Shown in pieces: positions 5,124 to 54,954 of a stretch of DNA of 64,000 nucleotides. The notes under the pieces were generated by a model, which saw nothing but the letters and a program-made list of their open reading frames with translations, did not search any database and was not told the origin of the DNA. The position numbers and the translations under genes were made by a program. The DNA comes from Clostridia bacterium. Its GTDB lineage: Bacteria; Bacillota; Clostridia; Monoglobales; Monoglobaceae. The stretch lies in assembly GCA_017456605.1 (NCBI GenBank), contig JAFTJA010000001.1, positions 1 through 64,000 of the forward strand, read 5' to 3'. Position 1 is the first letter of the stretch; each line of letters starts with the position of its first letter.

Positions 5124-5344
5124 GGCTGAACAATTTAGATGCCATCTGTTTGGCGATATACTCACTTCGTTCGTACGATATATTTTCATTTCATTTCGTT
5201 GCGATATGATATAAATTCCTTTGTTCTCGTCCCCAATGGACATATCGCATTACGAAGTAATATATTGCACCGAAGGTATATCGCAAATTCCGTCAGGAAT
5301 TTATATCGCTGAGTTCAAGTTTCACTTGAACTCATTATATAATT
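5124..5344. repeat. Hairpin array A: word CGATAT left, ATATCG right
   Basis: The left half carries CGATAT at 5154, 5176 and 5202. The right half carries its reverse complement ATATCG at 5242, 5278 and 5303. Between the right-hand words sit hairpins with different stems: ATTAC-GAA-GTAAT (5249-5261), ACC-GAA-GGT (about 5269-5277) and AAATTCC-GTCA-GGAATTT (5285-5302). A long-range 13-bp arm joins GATATAAATTCCT (5208-5220) to AGGAATTTATATC (5295-5307). The array ends with a perfect 10-bp stem, TGAGTTCAAG/CTTGAACTCA (5310-5334). There is no open frame of note. Not a known feature type that I can name. Confidence 0.75.
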
Positions 5345-5575
5345 AGGTGACAGAAAAGATGCACCTTGTTGTCGATATGCAACCTTCGTTTGCTCGATAT
5401 TTTTGCTACCGCAAAATCGATATGTTTTCGCTATGCTCAAACTCGATATGATATGAATTCTTGTCGCGTTAGCGACATATCGAGTGCGACAGCACATATC
5501 GAGTCCGCAAGACATATCGAGAATTCGCAAGAATTCATATCGACGATTTCAAGCTTCGCTTGAAATCATTATACC
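5345..5575. repeat. Hairpin array B: four CGATAT, then four ATATCG
   Basis: CGATAT occurs at 5373, 5395, 5418 and 5444; ATATCG occurs at 5477, 5496, 5514 and 5537. Each interval is a small palindrome: TTTTGC-TACC-GCAAAA, GTCGC-GTTA-GCGAC at the centre, GTGC-GACA-GCAC, GTC-CGCAA-GAC and GAATTC-GCAA-GAATTC. A 14-bp long-range arm pairs GATATGAATTCTTG (5450-5463) with CAAGAATTCATATC (5528-5541). A perfect 10-bp terminal stem with a TTC loop closes the array at 5545-5567. The array sits back to back with array A and stops about 30 bp before the nitroreductase promoter. Confidence 0.8.
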
Positions 5576-5603
5576 ACACCCTCTCCCTTTTTTCAACTTC
5601 CCC

Positions 5604-54325: not shown

Positions 54326-54353
54326 ACAGCCGCTTTTCTGCGGCTGTTTTTTT
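54326..54353 (+). terminator. Terminator of the TRAP unit
   Basis: ACAGCCGC pairs with GCGGCTGT around TTTTCT, then a run of eight T. Confidence 0.92.
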
Positions 54354-54361
54354 GTAAATAC

Positions 54362-54571
54362 GATACACTTTTGCTGTCATCTGTTTTTTAATGAACTATC
54401 TCGCCTTGCTCGATATGAAATAATTTCTTGCAGAAATTGTGAAATAGAAAAATAAGGTTTTCTGTGAAATAAAATAAATCCTTATATCACACGCCGTCAG
54501 GCGTATTTCACATTGCGAAGCAATATTTCATAGCAAAGCTATTTCACAAATCCGAAGGATTTATTTCATTG
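54362..54571. repeat. Hairpin array C: word TGAAAT left, ATTTCA right
   Basis: TGAAAT occurs at 54416, 54440 and 54465; ATTTCA at 54505, 54525, 54541 and 54563. The intervals are hairpins AATTTCT-TGC-AGAAATT, AGAAAA-ATAAGG-TTTTCT, ACGCC-GTCA-GGCGT, ATTGC-GAA-GCAAT, TAGC-AAA-GCTA and AAATCC-GAA-GGATTT. A 12-bp long arm joins AAATAAATCCTT (54472-54483) to AAGGATTTATTT (54555-54566). The left edge still reads CGATATGAAAT at 54411, holding the word of arrays A/B. The array separates the TRAP unit from the tmRNA gene. Confidence 0.78.
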
Positions 54572-54603
54572 AAAAACGATACAGTAAAAACTGTATCGTT
54601 TTT
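54572..54603 (-). terminator. Terminator of tmRNA, also the last palindrome of array C
   Basis: AAAAACGATACAG pairs perfectly with CTGTATCGTTTTT around TAAAAA. On the minus strand it begins right after the tmRNA CCA end and ends in a T-run, so it terminates ssrA. Confidence 0.9.
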
Positions 54604-54604
54604 C

Positions 54605-54954
54605 TGGTGGAGGCGAGGGGAATTGAACCCCTGTCCGAAAATTCATTCATACCCGGCGCTACGAGCGTAGTCTGTGGTCAAAATTCCCCGTCATCAAAGT
54701 CCACAGACAAACTCTGATGACCGGTAGCTTCATAAAATCGTGACCGGGTCAAAGCTTTCCCGGTTCATGTTCACCGCATTTGTTGATGCCCTTGTCCCCA
54801 ACCGCGGTAATCAGGGAAGGACAGCGCCTATAACTTAGGCAGCGTAAGCTAAATTATTGTTAGCGTTTAATTTTAAGTTTGGGTTTTTTTGCGCAGCACC
54901 CACTGCGGCTCGCTCCGAATACTTCAAAATCCCCGTCGAAACCATTGCGCCCCC
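54605..54954 (-). ncRNA. ssrA: Transfer-messenger RNA (ssrA)
   Basis: The 350-nt RNA starts GGGGGCGCAATGG and ends with the T-arm GGGGTTCAATTCCCC and CGCCTCCACCA. The ends pair as a 7-bp acceptor stem. GGTTTCGACGGGG follows the 5' end, as in all tmRNAs. The tag-coding part ends GCT AAC AAT AAT TTA GCT TAC GCT GCC TAA, giving a tag that ends ANNNLAYAA. The encoded CCA and the terminator directly downstream support a one-piece tmRNA. It rescues stalled ribosomes with SmpB, whose gene is next. Confidence 0.97.

Follow-up and report, generated by a model that had tools for sequence, protein, structure and literature searches.

A Gene-Less Array of Repeated Words and Mini-Hairpins behind ssrA, Probably Part of a Small and Apparently Mobile Element Family of Gut Clostridia

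Results

Array C as a member of an element family

An array of short repeated words, here called array C, was found next to the tmRNA gene ssrA in the window, that is, the whole 64,000-nt stretch of a Clostridia bacterium contig (JAFTJA010000001.1) that was analyzed. Array C is probably the array part of a non-autonomous, gene-less copy, of the TGAAAT type and located behind ssrA, of an element whose complete form carries a gene for a PF05635 protein of ~115 aa, an S23/Avd-like four-helix bundle (4HB); this degree of confidence is meant for the assignment jointly with the whole 4HB-element explanation, including the mechanism set out in the Discussion. The family consists of small elements that lie precisely at tRNA gene ends in gut Clostridia and are apparently mobile. 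A complete copy comprises a hairpin, a right arm of 4-5 words with a mini-hairpin each, a centre, a left arm with the complementary words and different mini-hairpins between them, the PF05635 gene and, often, a passenger gene that is coupled to it translationally. Shorter copies, array C among these, have the array without the gene.

Anatomy of array C

The initial annotation had described three TGAAAT words on the left side of array C and four ATTTCA words on the right side, and both were confirmed (starts 54416, 54440 and 54465, and starts 54505, 54525, 54541 and 54563, respectively), as were the GAA and GTCA loops and the long arm AAATAAATCCTT/AAGGATTTATTT. A fourth left word is degenerate (TGAACT at 54392). 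When the window was searched for a 6-mer triple followed, in order and within 180 nt or less, by a triple of its complement, only arrays A, B and C were obtained, and 12 shuffled windows gave no such pattern; array C is far above chance.

The tmRNA gene (54605-54954, minus strand; tag ANNNLAYAA) was identified with ARAGORN and Rfam (RF00023, 172 bits), and its 3′ CCA is the insertion point of the array C element. The interval 54362-54603 also includes the first hairpin, GAAAAACGATACAGTTTTTACTGTATCGTTTTTC (54571-54604, minus strand), a perfect, terminator-like inverted repeat that begins at the base behind the CCA and was found in identical form behind the tRNA-Pro of the same genome (G000) and behind the tmRNA of the relative G007. 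The right arm follows (54491-54568, minus strand), with four words, TGAAAT as read on the minus strand, at 54563-54568, 54541-54546, 54525-54530 and 54505-54510, and after each a mini-hairpin, at 54547-54562, 54531-54540, 54511-54524 and 54491-54504. The centre (54471-54490, minus strand) is a return strand, AAGGATTTATTTT, which can pair with the outermost word and the 5′ stem of the first hairpin. The left arm (54392-54470, minus strand) carries the complementary words, TGAAAT on the plus strand, at the left starts given above and, according to the ladder fold, unrelated mini-hairpins at 54398-54415, 54422-54439 and 54446-54464 (minus strand). Read in the direction of the tmRNA, the order is CCA, GAAAAACGATACAG..CTGTATCGTTTTTC, AATGAAAT-hp-TGAAAT-hp-TGAAAT-hp-TGAAAT-hp and the centre, and then ATTTCA-hp-ATTTCA-hp-ATTTCA-hp-(A)GTTCATT and the tail (hp, mini-hairpin).

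The putative outer tail, AAAAAACAGATGACAGCAAAAGTGTATCGTATTTACA (54356-54391, minus strand), has an approximate end in this copy. It resembles the tails of the tRNA-Pro copy L002 and of the tmRNA copy of G009, which ends in ..TTCCACCA; against the consensus tail, array C has 9 mismatches, which is non-significant. Among 82 arrays, the end motif CATCTAWAYYRTTCKGCTYTNCCA was detected with five or fewer mismatches in 15 (0.1 expected) and is unconvincing in array C, and a search for the tail motif by a loose regular expression gave no excess (27 against 27).

DNA folding of array C alone (54405-54572) gave z scores of −5.1/−4.8, one value per strand, and on either strand the fold is a ladder of word-word pairs with mini-hairpins protruding between them. 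RNA folding of 54340-54620, a stretch that takes in the perfect hairpin beside the tmRNA, gave a z score of −6.2. Most of the right arm (54500-54571, minus strand) matched Rfam Gut-1 (RF01706) over the whole 77-position model with 72.7 bits, above the gathering score of 50. The element had been called undescribed, which cannot stand for the right arm; for the left arm, gene, tRNA site and word code, the literature searched gave no description. The junction CGATATGAAAT had been taken for an old word beside the new one. This was a misreading: CGATA forms the 3′ strand of the outermost hairpin in the left arm, and 8 arrays share the junction. A recent word-by-word substitution was not supported; array C belongs to a separate TGAAAT lineage that is widespread in gut Clostridia.

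Arrays A and B of the window are gene-less as well. Array B (5373-5542, minus strand) has 4 + 4 words, CGATAT of the TCGATAT type, and directly before it lies a promoter, TTGAAA-17-TATAAT (5568-5596, minus strand), a position also seen in other promoter-linked elements. Array A (5154-5308, minus strand) has 3 + 4 words, one of them degenerate, CGATAT of the GCGATAT type, and gave a weak Gut-1 match (38 bits). Tandem stacking of elements was seen at 5154-5542 of the window and in L009/L097 (G007:C68), with the start of one element placed at the CCA-like end or the tail of the preceding one. A TCGATAT-type protein, matching array B, is encoded elsewhere in the same genome (G000:C6, L123), and the assembly, which is 84.7% complete, yielded no PF05635 protein for array A or array C. 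The TGAAAT arrays of G000 are thus left without a visible helper.

Words, hairpins and loops across arrays

The two-arm design recurs in relatives with about ten words. The word family was the same in both arms in 51 of the 54 arrays whose left arm could be read, as compared with a mean of 15.4 and a maximum of 28 in 20,000 permutations, so that the rule of matched words proposed in the initial annotation was borne out. The three exceptions include L014, a degenerate array, and L082, apparently a chimera between two types of element. Midway word changes, recombinant-looking between element types, were noted in L082 (TGAAGT to ATGAATTG) and L079 (TGAAGT to CGATAT).

Across 100 TGAAAT arrays, the right arm had four words in 67 and five in 23, and the left arm four in 54 and five in 32; a rule linking five words to a protein pentamer was dropped, the modal number being 4 per arm and five words occurring in 23-32%. 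No hairpin out of 294 reached 80% identity with a hairpin of the other arm. Since the hairpins differ between the arms, the word match is no by-product of one arm having been copied onto the other, and gene conversion of arms was rejected as the source of the matched words.

Stems in 727 inter-word segments contained 1824 Watson-Crick, 12 G-T, 5 A-C and 27 other pairs, as called with an equal penalty for every mismatch kind, and the difference between G-T and A-C (12 to 5) was weak (p 0.07). Read in the ATTTCA direction, the triloops were GNA in 93/159 and the tetraloops GNNA in 58/106, the loop was closed by C-G in 231/293, and the other arm shows the complements of these C-GNA-G/C-GNNA-G loops. 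The pattern differs from the GNRA rule of RNA, because the third base of GNNA is often a pyrimidine (C or T in 24 of the 58). Both d(C-GNA-G) and d(C-GNNA-G) form exceptionally stable DNA mini-hairpins. Stem and loop features together favor a DNA role of the array without proving one. A conserved, imperfect hairpin with tandem G.A mismatches, CGA-nn-loop-nn-GAG, stands at the outer left edge of 32 of 204 arrays (1.8 expected); it was found on one strand only (e.g., window 54398-54415, minus strand) and is limited to a few lineages.

The PF05635 gene and its word

Many arrays that are not at tRNA genes are followed immediately by a PF05635 gene, as complete copies are by definition. The array-associated genes mostly scored 34-104 bits to PF05635 (cut-off 33.8); the match to TIGR02436, 'four helix bundle protein', was 101 bits, and the nearest solved structure was PDB 2rld (E 2.8e-25). 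Over 60 genomes, which like all those compared are incomplete MAGs, Gut-1 and PF05635 occurred together in 19, one alone in 3 and 4, and neither in 34 (Fisher p 5e-9). The reverse transcriptase domain RVT_1 was rejected as a partner, showing no association with the arrays over the 60 genomes (p 0.22, with fewer joint occurrences than expected) and giving no match in the 84.7% complete G000.

A sample of 391 genomes of the class plus 60 relatives yielded 119 genes with flanks. For 53 labeled genes with 9 words, among them AGCTAAA, TGAAATA, GCGATAT, TCGATAT, ATGAATTG, GTGATATT, ATGATGT and TGAAGT, the upstream word tracked the protein clade: the tree required 9 changes, and in 300 shuffles the number was never below 29. 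Firm forks in this tree are few, and the canonical word list was compiled after the arrays had been read. An independent blind set was assembled by fetching 80 loci with the TGAAAT-type protein alone, from 80 named genomes, all Clostridia-type MAGs and mostly from ruminant and other herbivore gut. A TGAAAT array was present in 73 of the 74 loci with enough flank, and 57 of the 74 follow tRNA genes of various kinds. These copies mostly start at the base after the CCA, with CCA|GAAAA-type junctions, and 229-284 nt separate the CCA from the start codon. Both sets support that word variants are each accompanied by a gene of their own. A human-gut phage record (MT835590, L370) likewise holds a TGAAAT array with a 4HB gene, at 68% protein identity. 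Judged by these sequence comparisons, word and 4HB protein clade are inherited together; such congruence follows equally from plain co-inheritance and is no proof of recognition.

Sites at tRNA and tmRNA ends and at promoters

Outside the window, the analysis of G000 covered the regions flanking search matches. Of the 7 Gut-1 matches in G000, 5 lie directly behind tmRNA, tRNA-Pro, tRNA-Cys, tRNA-Glu and tRNA-Lys genes, and in the 60 relatives 26 of the 80 scorable Gut-1 arrays begin downstream of a tRNA or tmRNA CCA at a distance of one hairpin (15-43 nt). Closely similar copies (L001 and L002) were found at two sites of one genome. Occupancy of a given site varies between close relatives. The tmRNA site holds an element in G000, G005, G007 and G009 and unrelated, native sequence behind the CCA in G001, G002, G003, G004, G006 and G008. 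The tRNA-Pro(TGG) gene is identical in eight genomes of the genus; it is followed by a TGAAAT element in G000 and G005, by an apparent remnant of another element kind in G007, and by other sequence directly behind the CCA in G001, G002, G004, G006 and G008. The G005 element ends in ..TTCTTTGCCA, with a terminator-like hairpin immediately after it.

The site differs by element type. TGAAAT and ATGATGT elements and several array-less PF05635 groups lie behind tRNA genes; the AGCTAAA, GCGATAT, TCGATAT and ATGAATTG types mostly follow a −10 box (TATAAT) immediately, a −35 box standing at 17 nt and the spacers being dissimilar. The promoter precedes the array in these promoter-linked types, and of 74 TGAAAT elements 29 have a consensus promoter that separates the array from the gene (6% in shuffles). 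The array is internal to one end of the element, and some copies have CCA at both ends.

The array-less PF05635 genes directly behind tRNA genes (MESPLLNKS, MDSPLLVKS and MKENILIDKS types; L117-L125, L185, L207, L216, L220 and L252-L256), often accompanied by a CCAAAAAGAAACGACAATTTTCG hairpin, are probably sister element families. Array-less PF05635 genes were also seen downstream of type I restriction genes (L112, L368); in L368, plasmid 12 of Monoglobus pectinilyticus, the gene lies between hsdS and hsdR.

Passenger genes

An ORF began near the 4HB stop codon in 78 of 132 complete copies, with an ATGA overlap in 31. These ORFs, a few of which are probably spurious, fall into 56 families. P-loop kinase, pyrophosphatase-like, methyltransferase and DUF4288-like passengers occur behind several word types, and Pfam matches include GNAT, Nudix, DUF4279, WapI-like immunity, HAD, SfsA, methyltransferase and AAA. 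At the locus L326, a clear example, a tRNA-Ser gene and its CCA are followed by a hairpin, the array, a promoter and the 4HB gene, with ATGA leading into a GNAT gene. We infer that the passenger moves together with the element, and in some cases the presumed passengers may be flanking host genes.

Discussion

In the mechanism that we propose, the element would move as a unit and its words would be bound by the cognate 4HB protein, with the mini-hairpins acting as spacers that expose them. Pairing of word with word would join the arms in a ladder of four-way junctions. Once folded, the array, which is more likely to act as DNA (single-stranded or extruded) than as RNA, would be the cis signal for copying or integration of the element at RNA-gene ends. 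Insertion there would be harmless, the element restoring a hairpin behind the tRNA, and the cutting-joining enzyme would be supplied from outside the element. A related protein is a homopentamer (PMC4990558), and extraordinarily stable mini-hairpins of both DNA and RNA have been described in general (PMC10527192). Taken further, and more tentatively, as something we hold possible and would not yet favor, the family may be a recombinase-less mobile gene-cassette system, in which the 4HB protein reads a lineage-specific word of six letters between very stable DNA mini-hairpins through an evolving word/protein recognition code, uses sites behind a tRNA CCA or at promoter starts, and lets single genes be exchanged among gut bacteria.

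The array might instead act as RNA, either as a structured non-coding RNA or as a 5′ leader through which the 4HB protein, by binding it, would control its own synthesis. Rfam files Gut-1 as a non-coding RNA, the stretch including the tmRNA-side hairpin has the low RNA folding score given above, the orientation of array to gene was fixed in the copies read, and the promoter before the array in the AGCTAAA, GCGATAT and ATGAATTG types places the array in 5′ untranslated RNA. However, G-U pairs are almost absent among about 1870 stem pairs, and the GNA/GNNA loops are mirrored between the arms, with the non-GNRA pyrimidine at the third position already noted. Many TGAAAT elements have their promoter behind the array, and gene-less arrays persist behind terminator-like hairpins. 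We regard an RNA role, the main rival, as rather unlikely.

Short, gene-less, inverted, intergenic and multi-copy sequences could also be a plain MITE-like or REP/BIME repeat moved by Y1 (RAYT) or another transposase, with PF05635 as a mere fellow traveller. A Y1/RAYT transposase was rejected as the partner, as Y1_Tnp showed no significant association with Gut-1 (12/22 against 13/38, p 0.18) and gave no match in G000 (84.7% complete), and PF05635 is both attached directly to the arrays and associated with them in the co-occurrence data (p 5e-9), which makes this origin improbable. Highly improbable, in our judgment, is that the host keeps the arrays for its tRNA operons, as terminators acting in both directions or as RNA-processing elements, with local gene conversion holding their words identical. 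The first hairpin is indeed terminator-like and follows the CCA, but relatives manage without an array behind the same tRNA or tmRNA, and many arrays are located elsewhere than at tRNA ends. Moreover, the words agree where the hairpins do not, which speaks against conversion of the arms, and they follow the protein gene across host families. The 4HB-element explanation remains the one that we prefer.

Although PF05635 proteins were recognized decades ago, no function has been established for them, and how their elements move is an old question. The arrays are candidates for the nucleic-acid target of these proteins, and the roughly ten natural word variants, each with its own clade, make recognition directly testable by word/protein swaps. 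Confirmation of movement would make this a common way for single genes to arrive beside tRNA genes in gut Clostridia, by means of an element that has no recognizable transposase, no integrase and no reverse transcriptase. No description of a system combining words, 4HB protein and tRNA site was found in the literature searched.

Among the closest known systems is Gut-1, which Weinberg et al. (2010; PMC2864571) list from human gut metagenomes and regard as probably a non-coding RNA; the text consulted does not describe a left arm, word variants, a PF05635 gene or a tRNA site, and in the literature searched no other paper names Gut-1. The model covers one arm only, whereas array C has two, which suggests that this orphan Rfam family could be re-read as one arm of a mobile element.

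IS200/IS605 and REP-RAYT elements are similar in having imperfect hairpins flanked by short guide-like words; their partner, the Y1 transposase, is absent from G000 and unassociated with the arrays. Avd of the diversity-generating retroelements (PMC10053308) is a homologous four-helix-bundle protein, but such retroelements need a reverse transcriptase, and RVT_1 is absent from G000 and unassociated with the arrays. The intervening sequences of 23S rRNA that carry the S23 protein, e.g., the Coxiella IVS (PMC4990558), share PF05635 with the 4HB elements and are likewise small, situated in an RNA-gene region and provided with a long inverted structure, and their suspected mobility is unexplained (PMC4990558). 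They differ in lying inside 23S rRNA helices, in being excised by RNase III and in having no reported word-hairpin array, whereas the 4HB elements lie at tRNA 3′ ends or promoters, their insertion being behind a tRNA/tmRNA CCA or a −10 box and not in a 23S rRNA helix. Integron gene cassettes (attC) also use a folded, single-strand-like hairpin signal, and our likening of the two is by cargo repertoire alone: a one-gene cargo that includes GNAT, Nudix, methyltransferase and immunity-type genes. Unlike integron cassettes, the 4HB elements have the array before the gene, carry a 4HB gene of their own and occupy the ends of tRNA genes.
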